A stretch of 34,680 bases of DNA from a virus, in IMG/VR virus record IMGVR_UViG_3300008954_000150, positions 1 through 34,680 of that record, one strand, 5' to 3'. Positions 4,057 through 29,635 of the stretch are shown in pieces. A program made the translations under genes and the position numbers. Every line of letters starts with the position of its first letter. The stretch's first letter is position 1. Below the pieces are notes generated by a model. The model worked only from the letters and a program-made list of their open reading frames with translations, was not told the DNA's origin and ran no database searches.

Positions 4057-4342
4057 AATCATTGTTTTTATGGTTATAGGAAGCCCATACAAGCCCACAG
4101 ACTGCGATTTAGACCTCGCTGCGATAGTTACCCTACCTCGTTTTTTCTATTAAAATAAAGATTTTCTAAAAATATAGTCAGATCCAGCATATATTCTCCT
4201 GAAAATACTTCAAAAAAGCTAGTAAAATCAACCCTTTTTAGCTTAAAAAAATACCTATTATTGTCTCTTTTTTGTTTCTATTTTAGGTAGAATAGCTTAT
4301 AAATTGCTTATGTTTAATAATAAAAATAACAAAGGAGAAAAC
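4057..4342 (+). promoter_or_regulatory. Non-coding region before the amidoligase operon
   Basis: About 286 bases without a supported gene. The first part (4081-4140) is clearly more GC-rich than the surroundings. It contains a near-tandem 10-mer (AAGCCCATAC then AAGCCCACAG, 4081-4100), CTGCGAT twice (4102-4108 and 4119-4125) and ACCTCG twice (4113-4118 and 4135-4140), then a T6 run at 4141. The second part is very AT-rich and carries the 16-mer AAAAAGCTAGTAAAAT (4213-4228) shared with the other large gap. A promoter for the downstream operon is expected here; TTGTCT (4261) and TAGAAT (4288) are present, but their 21-base spacing is too long for a normal sigma-70 promoter. Confidence 0.45.
4213..4228 (+). 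repeat. Copy 1 of shared non-coding 16-mer
   Basis: AAAAAGCTAGTAAAAT, identical to 13891-13906. It is followed by TAGCTTAAAA at 4239-4248, so the AAGCTA and TAGCTT ends could pair as a six-base stem. The same TAGCTTAAAA also follows copy 2 at a greater distance. Confidence 0.5.
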
Positions 4343-5389
4343 ATGAGTAACTTAAAAGATAGAACTTTCGGTGTTGAAATCGAATGTTTCTTAAATAGTG
4401 ACAAAGCAAGGTTCGTAAGAAATTTTATGAACCAAACTGAGAACGAAAGAAATGGCCAAACTATAAATTATAATCCAAATAGATATGGAACTTGGTCGAG
4501 AACAGCTTGGACTTTAGGATATGATTCTACATTGCATTCTAGTTCACATAATAACGCTGTTGAGTTAACATCAAATCCAATTAAATTTTCAGATTTAGGA
4601 AAAATTAAATCTGTAATTGATGAATTAAATACAGTTGGAGCTGGTGTAAATAAATCTTGTGGATTACATGTTCATATAGACGCTTCAGATTTAACTTTAA
4701 AAGAAGTAAAAAATGTTCTTATAAGTTATTTGATTTATGAAGAAGTAATTGCTTTCACTCAACCAGAATCAAGAAGATGGAGTTCTCGTTGGTGTAATTC
4801 TAATAGAGGAATTAATCCAAGAGAATTAGATTTAGCTTTTCAAACGGCAACTACAAATGATTTAATTAAAAAAATCAAAAAAGCAAAATCAATTAAAAAA
4901 CTTTATCAAGTATATTCTGGATATAACGAGAGATATGTAAAAGTTAATTTAAAAGGTTTAGTTGCTTATCACGATAGACATGCAAGACCTCAAGAAAAAA
5001 CTGGTACAATCGAATTTAGACAAGGTGCAGGAACTACTGATTGGGATAAAATTTCTAATTGGATTTCATTTTGTTATATGATTGTTGAAACAAGTAGATT
5101 TTGTAATAGCGGAAGATGTTCACAAATCTATTTACCTTTTGCTCGTAAGAAAAGAATGTTATTTGAAAACTTAAGATTTAGATTAATGAGAGCTTTTGCT
5201 TCAAAAGAAGAATATAATGCAAATTTTATTAATGGAGTTTATCAAAATACTAGAAAATTTTTAGTAAAAAGAATTACACATTTTACTAAAACTACTTCTA
5301 ATCAAAGTGAAAGAGATTTAATTAATAGAACGAACTTAATGCCACCTACTTCTGAATTAGTTAGAGAGGAGGATTTTGAAAATGTATAA
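4343..5389 (+). CDS. Amidoligase-family enzyme (Amidoligase_2, COOH-NH2 ligase)
   Basis: 348 residues from the ATG at 4343, chosen because AAAGGAG lies eight bases upstream; the upstream in-frame ATG at 4304 lacks this. Family blocks in order: TFGVEIECF (Glu12 and Glu14), GYDSTL with AVELTSNPI (Glu74), KSCGLHVHIDAS (His109 and His111) and GTIEFRQGAGTTDWDKISNW (Glu224, Arg226). These are typical of the glutamine-synthetase-fold amidoligases that use ATP to join a carboxylate to an amine, often on peptides or amino acids. The next gene, overlapping by eight bases, encodes a cyclotransferase-like protein, suggesting chemistry on a gamma-glutamyl-type or isopeptide bond. Substrate unknown. First gene of its operon. 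Confidence 0.8.
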   Translation: MSNLKDRTFGVEIECFLNSDKARFVRNFMNQTENERNGQTINYNPNRYGTWSRTAWTLGYDSTLHSSSHNNAVELTSNPIKFSDLGKIKSVIDELNTVGAGVNKSCGLHVHIDASDLTLKEVKNVLISYLIYEEVIAFTQPESRRWSSRWCNSNRGINPRELDLAFQTATTNDLIKKIKKAKSIKKLYQVYSGYNERYVKVNLKGLVAYHDRHARPQEKTGTIEFRQGAGTTDWDKISNWISFCYMIVETSRFCNSGRCSQIYLPFARKKRMLFENLRFRLMRAFASKEEYNANFINGVYQNTRKFLVKRITHFTKTTSNQSERDLINRTNLMPPTSELVREEDFENV

Positions 5390-6056
5390 TTGGAAAAGTT
5401 ATATATCTCGAGGACCTTCTTATAAAGATATTAAGAAAAAATATAAGAACCACCCACGATATTATTTTGCGTATGGTTCTAATCTTAATTTAAAACAAAT
5501 GGAAACTCGTTGTCCAACCGCTACATTGATTAGTGCAGCGGAATTAGAAGGTTTCAAGTTAGTTTTTCGTGGCGTTCTCGATATAGAACGTGCGAGATCT
5601 AACTCGAAAGTTGTTGGTGCAATCTTTAAAGTTAATTCATGGGATATTTATAAATTGGATTGTTATGAAGGTTATCCAACATTTTATAATAAAGAAACAA
5701 CTATAGCAAAAGTCGATAATCAAAATGTTAAGTTGTTTTATTATATTATGAATAATCAAGAAGATGTTAAGCCACCGAGTGAATTTTATTATTCATCTTG
5801 TGAACAAGGTTATAAAGATTGTGGTTTACCTATTCAACGATTGAAACAAGCGTTTTACAATTCAATTAATCGAAAAAATACCGATATAGTTGATTGTGGT
5901 GCGAAATGGGGAATTAATACTCGTAGTAAAGTAATTAATATTCCTAAAAATAACATAAGTTATAAATTTGACGATAATGATTATGATTTTAATCAAGAAA
6001 CATTATTTGACGATTTAAGACCTTATGGAAATAATAACATAAAAGGAGAAAAGTAA
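5382..6056 (+). CDS. Gamma-glutamylcyclotransferase-like (AIG2/GGCT fold) protein
   Basis: 224 residues from the ATG at 5382; AGGAGG at 5367-5372 fixes this start over the TTG at 5376. The GGCT nucleotide-like loop YFAYGSNLN (YGSN at residues 31-34) and the later DCYEGYPTFY block, whose Glu96 fits the catalytic acid position, place it in this family. Known members cyclise gamma-glutamyl groups to 5-oxoproline or cleave gamma-glutamylamines. The C-terminal 80 residues (after about residue 145) are hydrophilic and not obviously part of the fold. Translation is coupled to the amidoligase by overlap, so the two probably act on the same linkage, one making and one breaking it or processing the product. 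Confidence 0.8.
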   Translation: MYNWKSYISRGPSYKDIKKKYKNHPRYYFAYGSNLNLKQMETRCPTATLISAAELEGFKLVFRGVLDIERARSNSKVVGAIFKVNSWDIYKLDCYEGYPTFYNKETTIAKVDNQNVKLFYYIMNNQEDVKPPSEFYYSSCEQGYKDCGLPIQRLKQAFYNSINRKNTDIVDCGAKWGINTRSKVINIPKNNISYKFDDNDYDFNQETLFDDLRPYGNNNIKGEK

Positions 6057-6223
6057 TGAGTATAACTAAATATAATACAACTATTCAATTAAGTGTAGTT
6101 TGTAAAAATAAAGATGAAGAAATGGACCTTAAAAATCACGATACAGGACATAAAAAATTAACTGAATCACAAATAAATAATTTGATTGGTAGAATTTGTC
6201 TTGAATTAAATAAGGAGGAATAA
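6056..6223 (+). CDS. Small hypothetical protein (55 aa)
   Basis: Starts in a TAATG overlap with the cyclotransferase gene, preceded by AAAAGGAG. The 55 residues are hydrophilic, with a C-terminal helix (LTESQINNLIGRICLEL) and two cysteines. No family recognised. Its end carries AAGGAGGAATA, the ribosome binding site for the next gene, which starts inside its stop codon. Confidence 0.6.
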   Translation: MSITKYNTTIQLSVVCKNKDEEMDLKNHDTGHKKLTESQINNLIGRICLELNKEE

Positions 6224-6375
6224 TGAAACCATTAATATTAAAAAAAGAATGGGAAGTTAAACCGAGTATAACTAAAAGAATATTAAATGTTTTAGATTAT
6301 ATTATATTCGGTGGATTAATGTTTTTCGTGTTTTGTGGTGGTTTAAATTGGTTAATAGGATTAATCAATGGTTAA
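6223..6375 (+). CDS. Small single-pass membrane protein (50 aa)
   Basis: TAATG overlap with the previous gene and a strong AAGGAGG support translation. A 20-residue basic N-terminus precedes one hydrophobic segment (about residues 24-48: DYIIFGGLMFFVFCGGLNWLI). It could anchor a module protein at the inner membrane. Function unknown. Confidence 0.55.
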   Translation: MKPLILKKEWEVKPSITKRILNVLDYIIFGGLMFFVFCGGLNWLIGLING

Positions 6376-6796
6376 TAATAGAGAAAATAATAATCCATTC
6401 AAGTACCTTTTAGGAAAGTGGGTACAAGAACCGATTAATTTCTCTTTGGCTTTAGAGATTTTAGACCGATTATATTGGACTAGGTCTCCAAAACCGAACA
6501 TATTTCAAAAATCTGTAAAAGATTTAACAAAAGAAATTTTAAATAAAAATGACCAAGATTCATTATTAAAGATAAGAATTGAAATATATAAGTTAGAATC
6601 ATTAACTTATATTAAAAGACACATGATTAATGATAAAATGTATTTAGTATCATTAAATCAAAAAGGAATAGATTTTTTAAATTATCAAACATCAAGTATA
6701 GAAATGAAATTAGAATTAAAACAAGAATGGGGAGAATTTTACGTTAAAAATGAAATTGAAGTAAATACATTTATAGATAAGGATTTATTAAAATGA
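6368..6796 (+). CDS. Hypothetical protein, possibly winged-helix-like
   Basis: 142 residues starting inside the preceding membrane-protein gene (eight-base overlap). The region 50-105 (SVKDLTKEIL, LLKIRIEIYKLESLTYI, MYLVSLNQKGIDFL) reads as helix, helix, beta-wing and helix, as in winged-helix proteins. I cannot name a family, so that reading is inference. Its stop codon overlaps a further ATG (ATGA) of a short open frame. Confidence 0.5.
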   Translation: MVNNRENNNPFKYLLGKWVQEPINFSLALEILDRLYWTRSPKPNIFQKSVKDLTKEILNKNDQDSLLKIRIEIYKLESLTYIKRHMINDKMYLVSLNQKGIDFLNYQTSSIEMKLELKQEWGEFYVKNEIEVNTFIDKDLLK

Positions 6797-6936
6797 TAAT
6801 ATTACAGAATACTCGTAAGTATGCGTGTATCACTTCTTTAGAGCTGTTATTAAACTGTGGTGTCAGTGCCCACTCTAAAGATAGTGCTCCTTTAAGGCAC
6901 TGGCACCTAAATAATAGCAAAGGAGGAAAGCGATGA
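6793..6936 (+). CDS. Possible 47-aa peptide overlapping a structured element
   Basis: An ATGA overlap with the upstream gene starts a 47-codon frame (MIILQNTRKYACITS...NNSKGGKR) whose TGA overlaps the ATG of the lipoprotein gene, again as ATGA. No ribosome binding site is evident before it. Codon choice (CTG, GTC, GCC, CAC, AGC, CGT) differs from the AT-ending codons of neighbours, because the DNA is about 46% GC here. It is either a real tiny gene carrying a conserved RNA structure, or a chance frame across a non-coding RNA element. I cannot decide between them. Confidence 0.3.
   Translation: MIILQNTRKYACITSLELLLNCGVSAHSKDSAPLRHWHLNNSKGGKR
6835..6907 (+). ncRNA. Candidate structured RNA with H-type pseudoknot
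   Basis: Two interleaved complementary pairs are visible. TCTTTAGAG (6835-6843) pairs with CTCTAAAGA (6873-6881), nine Watson-Crick pairs. GGTGTCAGTGCC (6859-6870) pairs with GGCACTGGCACC (6896-6907), twelve pairs with one G-U. Their order (A, B, A', B') is that of an H-type pseudoknot. A competing hairpin, AGTG..CC (6883-6890) with GGCACT (6896-6901), could form instead. The element is GC-rich and ends 13 bases before the AGGAGG of the lipoprotein gene, so it could act as a leader or riboswitch-like control. I do not recognise a known class. Confidence 0.45.
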
Positions 6937-7175
6937 AAAAATTAATTAGTATATTAGCTTTTAGTTTTTTAGTTGGTTGTGCAGCGTATCAACCAATTCC
7001 AGATTTAAAAGCTAGTAAAAATGCTAATTCGTTCCAAGAAGATAGACAACATTGTAAAATGCTTATTAAAGAAGAATTTAATGCGTTTTATGCCGCTTGG
7101 TACGATAGAGAATTATTATCTCGATGTTTAAATGGTCGAGGTCATAATGTGTTGAACACTTATACAATAGAATAG
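6933..7175 (+). CDS. Small lipoprotein
   Basis: 80 residues. The start KKLISILAFSFLVGCAAYQ is a lipoprotein signal with lipobox LVGC (Cys16), predicting lipidation and anchoring to the inner or outer membrane. The mature part is hydrophilic, with two more cysteines (HCKML, SRCLN). AGGAGG lies eight bases before the ATG. It follows the candidate structured RNA and belongs to the amidoligase module; phage lipoproteins of this size are often involved in superinfection exclusion or act as spanins, but neither is shown here. Confidence 0.65.
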   Translation: MKKLISILAFSFLVGCAAYQPIPDLKASKNANSFQEDRQHCKMLIKEEFNAFYAAWYDRELLSRCLNGRGHNVLNTYTIE

Positions 7176-14091: not shown

Positions 14092-14763
14092 ATGTCTGAA
14101 AAAGTTAAAATAGAATTATCAAGTCCATTTGGACCAACGATACTTAAAGCACAATTACCTGAAGAACTTATAAAAGATTTAAACCAAGATTGTGATGACA
14201 TTGTTGCTAAGAAAAAAGAACAAGTTGATTGGTCAGACCAGTTAGCTGGTAGAGTAAAAGAAGAATGGCATATTTCAAAAGACGCATCATCTAAATATTA
14301 TAGTTGGATAGGTGCAGTTACTTCTCGATATTTATTTCCTAATGATAAAATGTATGAGGAAAATAAAGATAAGTTAAAAGTTGGAATTGCAAGTGGTTGG
14401 TATATAAGACAGTTTTCAGGAGAGTTTAATCCATATCATTTTCATACTGGTTGCCAAGTATCATGTGTTGGTTATTTAAAACTTCCTGAAGATATAAATG
14501 AATATTGGAAAGAAGAAGATAAAGACCATAATCCATTTGGTGGATATTTAGATTTTAGATATGGAACTATTGGATTGAATTGTCCAAATAATATTAAAGT
14601 GAAACCTCAAGTTGGAGATTTTTATATGTTTCCAGCTTATTTAGATCATTGTGTTTATCCATTTAAAAGTAAATATATTAATTTTGAACCACAAGGAGAA
14701 AGGCGTTCATTTAGTTTAAACATAGTATTTAGCAATGTCGAAAAAGATAGAAATAAAAGTTAA
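14092..14763 (+). CDS. 2OG-Fe(II) oxygenase-like protein
   Basis: 223 residues. FNPYHFHTGCQVSCVGYLKLP (His116 and His118), GGYLDFRYG, VKPQVGDFYMFPAYLDHCVYPF (His186) and ERRSFSLNIVFS (Arg204/205) follow the pattern of PF13759-type 2-oxoglutarate and iron dependent oxygenases, with the HxH..H iron facial triad and an arginine for 2-oxoglutarate. These hydroxylate proteins, small molecules or bases. No good ribosome binding site precedes the ATG, so translation may be leaderless or use a weak site. It overlaps the ParB-like gene by 29 bases and lies in a cassette with a DNA methyltransferase. Substrate unknown. Confidence 0.65.
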   Translation: MSEKVKIELSSPFGPTILKAQLPEELIKDLNQDCDDIVAKKKEQVDWSDQLAGRVKEEWHISKDASSKYYSWIGAVTSRYLFPNDKMYEENKDKLKVGIASGWYIRQFSGEFNPYHFHTGCQVSCVGYLKLPEDINEYWKEEDKDHNPFGGYLDFRYGTIGLNCPNNIKVKPQVGDFYMFPAYLDHCVYPFKSKYINFEPQGERRSFSLNIVFSNVEKDRNKS

Positions 14764-15262
14764 TCCTAATTTAAAAACAATTAGGTTAGATAGTTTAGTT
14801 CCTTATTCTAAAAATCCTAGAAAGATTCAAAAGGGAGTTCCTTTAGTTAAAGAATCAATTAAAACTTTTGGATTTAATGTTCCTATTACTATTAATAATA
14901 TGCGAGATAGAGAAATTGTAAGTGGACATACAAGATACGCTGCAGCTAAAGAACTTGGAATGGATATGGTACCTTATATTGAATTAGACTATTTATCAGA
15001 TTTAGATATTAGAAAATTTAGAATAGCTGATAATAGAGTTACTCAAGATACAGAATGGGATAAGAATTTGTTGCGTAATGAATTAGCCGAATTAGAATTG
15101 AACAGTAAGTTAGATGCTGAATGGTGGAAAGCAACAGGATTCAATCAAGAGGAAATTGCTAAAATACTTGCTGGAACATTAACAGAACCTGATGATTTTA
15201 AAGAAGTAAGTTCTGAATTAGAAACAAAAAACAAATGTCCAAAATGCAAGTATGAATGGTAG
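14735..15262 (+). CDS. ParB-like nuclease/CTPase-fold protein with zinc knuckle
   Basis: 175 residues. A ParB/Srx-type domain (IRLDSLVPYSKNPRKI, VKESIKTFGFNVPITI, EIVSGHTRYAAAKELGM with GHTR at 64-67, KFRIADNRVTQDTEWD) occupies residues 15-125. The C-terminus ends in CPKCKYEW (Cys168, Cys171), which could contribute half of a zinc site. In many phages this domain is fused to a DNA methyltransferase; here it is a separate gene that overlaps the methyltransferase by 11 bases. It may guide or regulate methylation or act as a nuclease. Confidence 0.7.
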   Translation: MSKKIEIKVNPNLKTIRLDSLVPYSKNPRKIQKGVPLVKESIKTFGFNVPITINNMRDREIVSGHTRYAAAKELGMDMVPYIELDYLSDLDIRKFRIADNRVTQDTEWDKNLLRNELAELELNSKLDAEWWKATGFNQEEIAKILAGTLTEPDDFKEVSSELETKNKCPKCKYEW

Positions 15263-16328
15263 TACAAAAAAACCAAAATATAAAATTCCATCAATGGCAG
15301 AAATTAAAACCATTAAACCTAATGGTTATAAAGTTATTTCTACTTTTGCTGGTTGTGGAGGTTCATCACTTGGTTATAAGTTAGCTGGTTATAATATATT
15401 ATGGGCTAATGAATTTGTTAATCATGCAGTAGAAATATATAAAGCTAATCATAAAACAACTATTGTTGATAATACTGATGTTAGAAAAGTAAATGCTGAA
15501 GATATTTTAAAAACTTTAAATTTAAAAAAAGGAGAACTTGATTTATTTGATGGAAGCCCACCTTGTATGTCATTTTCTACTGCTGGTAAAAGAGAAAAGA
15601 ATTGGGGAAAAGAAAAAAAGTATTTCGACCATCATCAAGTAGCCGATGATTTATTTTTTGAATATATAAGATTAGTAAAAGGTTTAAAACCTAAAACTTT
15701 TGTTGCAGAAAATGTATCTGGTTTAATTAAAGGTGTAGCCAAAGGTTATTTTAAAATTTTTTTACAAGGAATGATTGATGCTGGTTATAAAGTAAAAGCA
15801 TATTTAGCAAATGGAAAATATTTAGGTGTTCCACAAGCAAGACAAAGAGTTTTTTATGTTGGTGTTAGAAATGATTTAAAATTAGAACCTGTTTTTCCTC
15901 AACCTCAACAATTTGTTTATACTTTAAAAGATGCAATATGGGATTTAAGAAATGAAACTAAAGAACCTGATGTTTGGCAAAATAAAAGACCTGATGGAAC
16001 TCCTTTTATGTATGCTTATGGAAAAGAATGGGAACAGTTAAGTCAAGGACAACAAAGTAATAAATATTTTAATGTTATTAGAGCTGCGTGGAATAAACCA
16101 TGTAATACTGTATTAGCTACCGCTGCTAGAGCTGCTTCTGTTTGTCACCCAACTGAAAATAGAAAATTTACGATTAAAGAATTAAAACGTATCTTTGGCT
16201 TTCCAGATGATTTTATTTTTTTTGGAAATTATAAAGAACAATGGGCTAGATTAGGTAATTGTGTTCCGCCACCAATGATTTATTTTATCTCGAAAAAGAT
16301 TCAACAAGATATTTTGGATAGATTATAA
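15252..16328 (+). CDS. DNA (cytosine-C5) methyltransferase
   Basis: 358 residues with the ordered C5-MTase motifs. Motif I is TFAGCGGSSLGYKLAGY (32-47), motif IV GSPPCMSFS with catalytic Cys105, and motif VI AENVSGL (Glu153). Motif VIII is QARQRVFYVG, and motif X RLGNCVPPPM near the C-terminus. It transfers a methyl from S-adenosylmethionine to C5 of cytosine. The target-recognition region (about residues 215-300) is not informative about the site. No restriction endonuclease gene is adjacent, so it is solitary and probably protects phage DNA or alters gene expression. Neighbour genes: ParB-like and 2OG oxygenase. Confidence 0.9.
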   Translation: MNGSTKKPKYKIPSMAEIKTIKPNGYKVISTFAGCGGSSLGYKLAGYNILWANEFVNHAVEIYKANHKTTIVDNTDVRKVNAEDILKTLNLKKGELDLFDGSPPCMSFSTAGKREKNWGKEKKYFDHHQVADDLFFEYIRLVKGLKPKTFVAENVSGLIKGVAKGYFKIFLQGMIDAGYKVKAYLANGKYLGVPQARQRVFYVGVRNDLKLEPVFPQPQQFVYTLKDAIWDLRNETKEPDVWQNKRPDGTPFMYAYGKEWEQLSQGQQSNKYFNVIRAAWNKPCNTVLATAARAASVCHPTENRKFTIKELKRIFGFPDDFIFFGNYKEQWARLGNCVPPPMIYFISKKIQQDILDRL

Positions 16329-29163: not shown

Positions 29164-29414
29164 TAGAAAAATTAATGACAATGTTGGTAGGAATTTTATT
29201 AGCGTTAGCTGGTTGGTCGCTTTCAAGAACTTTTGAACTTTCAACTATTCAAGCAGTACATGAAGATAAAGTACATAAACTTGAAAGACAAGTTATGAAA
29301 TTAGAAGATAAAATGGATAAGATGATGGATTCAGATGAAGAAATTATGGAACAGCATAAAAAATTATTTGATGCTTTAGATAATAATTCAACAACAGGAT
29401 ATAATTATAACTAA
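29160..29414 (+). CDS. TM plus coiled-coil protein, copy A
   Basis: 84 residues. Membrane segment LMTMLVGILLALAGWSLSRT (5-24), then a coiled coil (HEDKVHKLERQVMKLEDKMDKMMD). Overlaps both neighbours by 1-4 bases. It resembles the next protein (LLALAGWSLS versus LIALSGWSLS), so the pair is probably a tandem duplication. Similar small proteins occur beside phage lysis or tail genes; an XhlA-like or i-spanin-like role is possible but not shown. Confidence 0.5.
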   Translation: MIEKLMTMLVGILLALAGWSLSRTFELSTIQAVHEDKVHKLERQVMKLEDKMDKMMDSDEEIMEQHKKLFDALDNNSTTGYNYN

Positions 29415-29635
29415 TGAACGATAAAATTATTACTGTACTTTTGGCTATTTTAATTGCTCTTTCTGGTTGGTCATTATCTACTACTGTTGGGCTTAAATCA
29501 GATGTAGCTGTATTAAAAGAAAAGGTATCTAAAATGGAAAAAGATATTGAGGAAATAGGTTGGAATACTTTTGATAAAGATAAGAAAAAAAAGAAAAAGA
29601 AGAAGAAAAAGAAAAAGAAATTAAATGTTCAATGA
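29414..29635 (+). CDS. TM plus coiled-coil protein, copy B, with poly-Lys tail
   Basis: 73 residues. ITVLLAILIALSGWSLSTT then coiled coil SDVAVLKEKVSKMEKDIEEIG as in copy A, ending in a run of 13 consecutive lysines (29582-29620). The tail could bind phosphate groups of membrane lipid or nucleic acid, and the purine-rich DNA is prone to slippage. Overlaps the lipoprotein gene by 11 bases. Confidence 0.5.
   Translation: MNDKIITVLLAILIALSGWSLSTTVGLKSDVAVLKEKVSKMEKDIEEIGWNTFDKDKKKKKKKKKKKKKLNVQ

Follow-up and report, generated by a model that had tools for sequence, protein, structure and literature searches.

The window, which is the whole 34,680-nucleotide stretch of viral DNA that was analysed, carries an amidoligase gene and a gamma-glutamyl cyclotransferase (GGCT) gene, followed by small ORFs and a lipoprotein gene with a structured leader (Table 1). 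The ORFs, protein families, gene overlap and gene order described in an earlier note on this DNA stand, including the succession of 55-aa ORF, hydrophobic peptide, 142-aa ORF, structured stretch and lipoprotein, while its winged-helix assignment and the grouping of seven items into a single module do not. The source phage of the enzyme pair is probably of marine origin. A DNA-level search with the record gave a sole match (2%), to the lysozyme of Pelagibacter phage HTVC111P, for which no amidoligase is annotated, and a search of the record found no tyrosine integrase.

Table 1. Features of the amidoligase–GGCT and lipoprotein region (positions in the window)
Feature	Position	Strand	Remarks
Amidoligase, COOH-NH2 ligase of glutamine-synthetase fold (predicted), 348 aa	4343..5389	+	ATG 4343, stop 5389; PF12224, phrog_2443
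Amidoligase/GGCT overlap, 8 bases	5382..5389	+	sequence
Gamma-glutamyl cyclotransferase (GGCT/AIG2 fold), 224 aa, family-specific C-terminal tail	5382..6056	+	ATG 5382, stop 6056; PF06094, phrog_2520
55-aa ORF	6056..6223	+	not conserved with the pair
50-aa single-pass membrane peptide	6223..6375	+	max KD19 2.09
142-aa ORF	6368..6796	+	homologue in L002
Leader ORF, 47 aa, through the structured element; stop overlaps lipoprotein start (ATGA)	6793..6936	+	open frame in 7/7 leaders
Pseudoknot 5' strand TCTTTAGAG	6835..6843	+	pairs with 6873-6881
Stem-loop P2, GGTGTCAGTGCC / GGCACTGGCACC; loop holds pseudoknot 3' strand	6859..6907	+	stem, covariation
Lipoprotein Shine-Dalgarno AAAGGAGG	6919..6926	+	complementary to P2 loop (CTCCTTT)
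Lipoprotein, 80 aa, lipobox LVGC, motif C..GRGHNVLN	6933..7175	+	alignments A3, A6; core gene of phage family

The identity of the amidoligase is borne out by a Pfam profile match far above the cut-off (PF12224, Amidoligase_2; E = 1.9e-28, 100.4 bits, cut-off 22), by phrog_2443 (E = 2.7e-32) and by its predicted structure. Its AF2 model, of modest confidence (pLDDT 65), has E. coli YbdK (1r8g) as best Foldseek match (probability 1.00, E = 6.4e-5) with glutamine synthetases next, and aligns over 175–185 residues with such folds (VIA Z about 10); by this model the enzyme is of a glutamine-synthetase-like fold. The PDB sequence search detected no similarity to YbdK and matched no other solved structure, NCBIfam gave no match for either enzyme, and a single PADLOC match of the amidoligase was weak and unconvincing and was rejected. 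Across ten amidoligases 22 columns are invariant, among them the acidic ExE (E12, E14), HxH (H109, H111) and ExR (E224, R226) motifs as well as D61, E74, C106 and R144. The catalytic residues are thus kept on alignment, and the enzyme looks catalytically intact.

For the GGCT, the fold assignment holds as well, with PF06094 far above the Pfam cut-off (E = 7.7e-11, 43 bits, cut-off 22.8), phrog_2520 at E = 1.5e-32, and human GGCT as the best solved match of the AF2 model (modest confidence, pLDDT 65; probability 1.00, E = 3.5e-10), its subfamily ranking above GGACT and ChaC. Human GGCT is also found by sequence (E = 2e-9), where phage E96 aligns with the catalytic E98, and the YGSN loop (Y31-G-S-N34) and E96 are invariant in the close GGCT set. 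Fold, YGSN loop and catalytic Glu are common to the human (2i5t, 3cry) and phage proteins, while the phage family adds a conserved, apparently disordered C-terminal tail (VDCGAKWGINTR). With its catalytic Glu kept, the GGCT also looks catalytically intact.

Translational coupling of the two genes, proposed earlier, is supported by the exact 8-base overlap, by an AGGAGG ahead of the GGCT start and by conservation of the overlap, which measures 8 bases in L001 and L002, 20 in L003, 23 in L004 and 14 in L023. Comparison with an 81%-identical relative shows purifying selection on the two genes (dN/dS 0.14/0.52 and 0.13/0.48). The amidoligase–GGCT linkage cited in the earlier note agrees with the literature and with pairing across many phages: of 43 phage records in which a similar GGCT occurs, at least 40 contain an amidoligase too, and among 15 amidoligase records that were searched over their full length 11 have a GGACT domain, a twelfth (L004) stopping inside the GGCT gene. 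Since amidoligases without GGCT exist in Porphyromonas phage W05 and in G004 and G006 (which have a GATase instead), the pair is not obligatory. A class-II GATase adjoins the amidoligase, or is fused to the GGCT, in other records, which supports a single peptide/amide pathway. The earlier note had named genes found apart and among unrelated neighbours as evidence against its reading; we find the enzymes mostly together, with neighbours that are indeed unrelated from phage to phage.

Phage amidoligase–GGCT pairing is reported to have been read earlier as host cell-wall or peptide modification (Iyer 2009; phiEco32/RIO-1 literature). In the phiEco32/RIO-1/LUZ24-type cassette, a glutamine-synthetase-fold amidoligase and a GGCT reportedly share one early-gene cluster (Iyer 2009; Hardies 2013; PMC5498523, PMC11945000), as they do here with overlapping genes, but a class-II glutamine amidotransferase, an ATP-grasp enzyme and a further COOH-NH2 ligase belong to those cassettes as well. 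In our record, which is possibly incomplete, searches gave no match to class-II GATase (GATase_4 and GATase_6; PF13522 and PF13230) or to the one ATP-grasp family sought, the D-Ala-ligase type (PF07478, Dala_Dala_lig_C). In Firmicutes gut phages ('Ca. Heliusvirales') and in Clostridium and Terrisporobacter prophages the amidoligase is likewise directly followed by the GGCT (PMC11318856, PMC11253131). However, those genes lie ∼50 bases apart and do not overlap, their neighbours are terminase and methyltransferase genes with no lipoprotein, and identity to our pair is ∼25% (ligase) and 38–41% (GGCT). The OM43 phages are marine, as ours probably is, and are alike in having PF12224 and, in many of their genomes, a calcineurin-like phosphoesterase, whereas a GATase is named in place of the GGCT (PMC10580990). 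The pair described here is a further example of an already predicted phage cassette type, in a stripped two-gene form.

The pair occupies a variable slot, bounded by the lysozyme region on one side and by the lipoprotein gene on the other. In the relatives L017, L018/19 and L020 both enzymes are missing and unrelated genes occupy it, while the lipoprotein is kept (79–82% identical, same surroundings) and holds the same position together with its leader and the downstream recombination genes. The enzyme pair is a swappable cassette and the lipoprotein a fixed gene of the phage family. Because flanks and lipoprotein persist without the pair, the lipoprotein is not the enzymes' partner, and since the pair is swappable its neighbours are uninformative on its target. 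The earlier note took the adjoining membrane and lipoprotein genes to suggest an envelope target; such a target may still apply, on the older general prediction and not on these neighbours. A single distant relative of the lipoprotein, in Paramagnetospirillum, was found in the genome collection, and in the phage collection no isolate with it was found.

Among the pair-carrying relatives (L002, L003, L023), the small ORFs that separate the enzymes from the lipoprotein also vary. The 142-aa ORF, formerly termed winged-helix-like, has no convincing family in Pfam, PHROG, NCBIfam or PADLOC and its sole homologue in L002 (55% identical), whereas the 55-aa ORF has no family above the Pfam cut-off and a homologue in none of the three. 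The first residues of the 50-aa peptide (PLILKKEWEV) reappear in a 31-aa ORF of L023. The seven genes do not all travel together, as the 55-aa and 142-aa genes are absent beside the pair in L003 and L023.

What the enzymes do, including the substrates and the direction of the reactions, we infer. We are about half convinced that they form a two-gene metabolic cargo cassette of a ligase and a trimming GGCT, set beside a core lipoprotein with its own pseudoknotted leader. The ligase would activate a carboxylate with ATP as acyl phosphate and join it to an amine, most likely yielding a gamma-glutamyl-type (isopeptide) amide on a small amine or peptide of the host. The GGCT would open gamma-glutamyl amides with a free alpha-amine, releasing 5-oxoproline, and might thus trim or recycle the ligase product or a host gamma-glutamyl peptide; its target could also be a host metabolite separate from the ligase product. 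The gene overlap may help to hold both enzymes at a fixed ratio. DNA hypermodification was considered and rejected as unsupported by the neighbouring genes.

A more tentative proposal is envelope modification for superinfection exclusion, in which the ligase would add an unusual peptide link to peptidoglycan stem peptides and the GGCT would edit gamma-linked glutamate. Gamma-linked glutamate occurs in these stem peptides, and the enzyme families are identical to those of the phiEco32/RIO-1 cassette, yet the pair is unlinked to the lipoprotein and membrane genes beside it and neither enzyme has a membrane segment. Phage receptors or lysis might then be altered, by analogy with predictions for phiEco32 (Iyer 2009) and RIO-1-like phages (PMC5498523), although the papers considered here report no experimental test of this, and no biochemical test of the 2009 prediction of Iyer et al. 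on amidoligase–GGCT sets. We regard as unlikely a redox or gamma-glutamyl-metabolite control, with a YbdK-like ligase making gamma-glutamyl amino acids or amines and the GGCT degrading host gamma-glutamyl compounds (e.g. gamma-Glu-Cys), so that glutamate equivalents are freed during infection. In its favour, YbdK is the solved structure closest in fold to the ligase and the human GGCT subfamily ranks first for the cyclotransferase, but fold neighbours do not fix substrates and, to our knowledge, the physiological substrate of YbdK is itself unsettled.

The structured element ahead of the lipoprotein gene is real (z −3.5) and proved to be the 5' leader of that gene; each of the seven leaders found contains it. 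The set is small, with seven loci from one phage family, and no other complete leader came out of scans with the lipoprotein and the phosphoesterase. The P2 stem has 11–14 bp, is rebuilt from differing sequences across leaders and was unmatched by 100 shuffles in each of the seven loci. Over six loci 66/66 cells are paired, with double-sided (compensatory) changes in 9 of 11 pairs. The covariation score is 0.65, versus 0.19 in shuffles. The loop-to-upstream pseudoknot is supported in six loci and not significant in L023 (p = 0.25). An equivalent of the leader ORF, which the earlier note had left out, is open in 7/7 leaders, a comparable frame occurring in 2–10% of shuffles. An Rfam 15 search of the window and six loci returned no match at the gathering score, the best sub-threshold matches being chance-like. 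A covariance model built on four of the leaders and run with filters off located the held-out L017 exactly (17.1 bits); the same model recovered L023 weakly and did not find L003, and with default filters all three were missed. Two further candidates were rejected: UUUAAAC, which precedes the stem in L017, L018 and L020 and was considered as a −1 frameshift signal, is absent in L002 and L003 and, as worked through in L018, lies there in the wrong frame, and evidence that the P2 loop acts as an anti-Shine-Dalgarno is clear in the window alone (p = 0.017) and weak or not significant in the other loci.

The leader probably controls translation of the lipoprotein, a regulatory role that we infer. 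The chances seem to us evenly balanced that it is an undescribed RNA regulator, in which a pseudoknotted stem, compensatorily rebuilt over nearly its full length, is crossed in all relatives by a sequence-variable leader ORF and couples lipoprotein translation to upstream ribosome traffic. Ribosomes reading the leader ORF would probably melt the knot beside the lipoprotein start site, and lipoprotein translation would thereby be tied to translation upstream. That the stem-loop is instead a DNA element, such as a replication origin or a recombination or packaging site, appears improbable: each genome has one copy of it, close to early or replication genes, but P2 ends 16–25 nt ahead of a start codon with Shine-Dalgarno in 7/7 loci, a reading frame crosses the element in all loci, and coding-strand G–T pairs (5/66 P2 cells) fit RNA and not a DNA cruciform.

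A single seven-gene envelope module that includes lipoprotein and membrane peptide is very hard to maintain, since the gene order in the window, kept partly in L002, is opposed by lipoprotein and flanks without enzymes in L017, L018/19 and L020 and by L003 and L023, where the pair occurs but the 55-aa and the 142-aa gene do not. Our explanation, to which we give as a whole an even chance, is that the enzyme pair and the lipoprotein with its leader are two unrelated things joined in the earlier note, whose enzyme identities, catalytic residues, coupling and linkage stand, while its step from the neighbours to an envelope target is unsupported. Unlinking the lipoprotein from the enzymes takes away a misleading clue on their target, and the overlapping two-gene form is a good minimal unit for learning what phage amidoligase–GGCT sets do. 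If borne out, the leader would provide a new and compact example of RNA-based control in phages.

The 34,680-base sequence is an entire IMG/VR virus record carrying genes for a GpA-type terminase, a lambda-type portal and an HK97-type capsid. Its amidoligase and gamma-glutamyl cyclotransferase (GGCT) genes overlap by 8 bases, with an AGGAGG 5' of the GGCT start, and the two genes also overlap in other records compared with it (8 bases in L001 and in the close relative L002, 20 in L003, 23 in L004 and 14 in L023). Both are under purifying selection, as judged against L002, which is 81% identical (amidoligase: dN 0.136, dS 0.519; GGCT: dN 0.127, dS 0.475).

In an alignment of ten amidoligases with identities down to 27-29%, 22 columns are invariant, among them E12 and E14 (GxExE), D61, E74, C106-G-x-H109-x-H111, R144 and E224-x-R226. 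The predicted amidoligase model (pLDDT 65, pTM 0.64) matched E. coli YbdK best (prob 1.00, E 6e-5), followed by glutamine synthetases, with which VIA-align gave a Z of about 10 over 175-185 residues. GGCT is similar in sequence to human GGCT (E 2e-9), with E96 aligned to the catalytic E98, a position occupied by Q in one aligned GGCT entry, 3cry; its model (pLDDT 65) also ranked human GGCT first, ahead of GGACT and ChaC. In this phage family GGCT carries an extra, nearly invariant C-terminal tail with the conserved motif NTDxVDCGAKWGINxR, which is predicted to be disordered and had no match in the phage collection.

A similar GGCT was present in 43 phage records, at least 40 of which also encode an amidoligase; the exceptions are two Bacillus phage G records and one 4.4-kb fragment. 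Conversely, 11 of 15 amidoligase-bearing records searched whole contain a GGACT domain, while L004 ends inside the GGCT gene; one of the remaining three is a Porphyromonas phage, and in the other two the next gene is a class-II glutamine amidotransferase. Amidoligase, GGCT and amidotransferase occur together in the record L012. The cassette of RIO-1 comprises GGCT, amidotransferase, two ligases and ATP-grasp, whereas our record, a stripped two-gene form, gave no match to GATase_6, GATase_4 or Dala_Dala_lig_C. The peptidoglycan-modification reading of such sets is said to stem from Iyer 2009. Amidoligase/GGCT-type sets have been interpreted as modifying peptidoglycan and thereby blocking superinfection (PMC5498523, PMC11945000, PMC11318856, PMC11253131, PMC10580990). 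Due to this published reading and the recurrence in phages, the association is already known, and the enzymes described here add to that kind.

Features discussed, with positions in the window or in the record named
Feature	Record	Position	Details
Amidoligase, 348 aa	window	4343-5389	PF12224 Amidoligase_2, E 1.9e-28; phrog_2443, E 2.7e-32
GGCT, 224 aa	window	5382-6056	PF06094, E 7.7e-11; phrog_2520, E 1.5e-32
GGCT C-terminal tail	window	5880-6056	NTDIVDCGAKWGINTR...
Lipoprotein, 80 aa	window	6933-7175	
2OG-Fe(II) oxygenase, ParB-like protein, C5-cytosine methyltransferase	window	14092-16328	consecutive genes
73-aa ORF	window	29414-29635	hydrophobic N-terminus; long lysine-codon run at end, A-rich and perhaps a tract of assembly or slippage
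Second, weak Amidoligase_2-like protein	L007 (Heliusvirales phage)	4200-4964	E 0.006; immediately 5' of amidoligase
Class-II glutamine amidotransferase-GGCT fusion	L016	2334-3191	near amidoligase; a natural link between both activities
Conserved protein of about 370 aa, CGICNQ(H/Y)W motif	L017	4099-5220	fills the slot of the pair
Same protein	L018	5727-6821	fills the slot
Same protein	L020	6092-7219	fills the slot
Second long stem-loop, GTACTCGTACTTA/TAAGTACGAGTAC	L020	5837-5890	lies in the slot, 5' of an ORF start; possible loop-upstream pairing

Glutamine-synthetase-like ligases form amides via an acyl phosphate, and GGCT-type enzymes convert a gamma-glutamyl amide with a free alpha-amine to 5-oxoproline and the free amine. 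Since both enzyme types are encoded as a tight gene pair, the simplest meaning is that the pair would add a gamma-glutamyl or isopeptide link and afterwards trim or recycle it. Neither protein contains a hydrophobic segment of membrane length, so that the work is probably cytoplasmic, and the target would be a metabolite, a protein or a not yet exported precursor of the cell wall.

The earlier note had placed the pair in a membrane/lipoprotein module and proposed checking in other phages if its seven genes stay together. While its observation largely stood, the module reading did not, since the relatives L017, L018/L019 and L020 share the flanks and the lipoprotein and neither enzyme was found in them. 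Phosphoesterase (81-87%) and lipoprotein (79-82% identical to the window) are retained, as are the recombination genes as far as the contigs reach, and unrelated genes occupy the slot. Small ORFs vary even where the pair is present: L002 has a membrane peptide and a homologue of the 142-aa protein (55% identical), L003 two other small ORFs and L023 one. We therefore regard the pair as a cassette and the lipoprotein as a core gene. An envelope target can consequently no longer be deduced from the adjoining lipoprotein, which occurs also where the pair is absent. The lipoprotein has two invariant Cys besides the lipobox Cys and a distant relative in Paramagnetospirillum; the phage collection gave no match to it.

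The stretch 5' of the lipoprotein gene folds more stably than its shuffles (z -3.5). All seven leaders found contain an 11-14 bp stem at the same place, 16-25 nt 5' of the start codon; in L023 a 31-aa ORF comes after the stem, and the lipoprotein follows this ORF directly. Stem sequences differ by locus (GGTGTCAGTGCC/GGCACTGGCACC in the window, GGTGGGATTGA/TCAATCCCACC in L002, GGACACGAGGG/CCCTCGTGTTC in L003, yet others in L017, L018, L020 and L023), and in none of the seven was the observed stem matched by any of 100 shuffles. Across six loci 66 of 66 stem cells are paired, with changes on both sides in 9 of 11 pairs; G-T occurs in five cells, read on the coding strand, in keeping with RNA. 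The covariation score was 0.65 compared to 0.19 in shuffles (MAFFT alignment, four leaders), and every slid register collapsed. Pairing is seen between the loop and a segment that lies 12-18 nt 5' of the stem (36 of 36 cells in six loci, 6 of 6 pairs compensatory); with stems fixed, the combined p over seven loci was about 1e-6, L023 alone not being significant. As the helices were selected for pairing, these cell and pair counts lean towards structure. Free of this bias are the shuffles, a swapped-upstream control and the recovery of the held-out L017 leader by a covariance model, which missed L003. No Rfam family matched the leader.

In all seven loci an open frame from near the preceding stop crosses the structured element and reaches, or nearly reaches, the next start, as in only 2-10% of shuffles. 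Since neither its amino acids nor its frame are conserved, this leader ORF looks to be maintained for the act of translation rather than for its product. Most economically, ribosomes on the leader ORF would open the knot beside the lipoprotein start site, giving the leader a putative regulatory role. This leader RNA is the part of the finding that a specialist might not expect.
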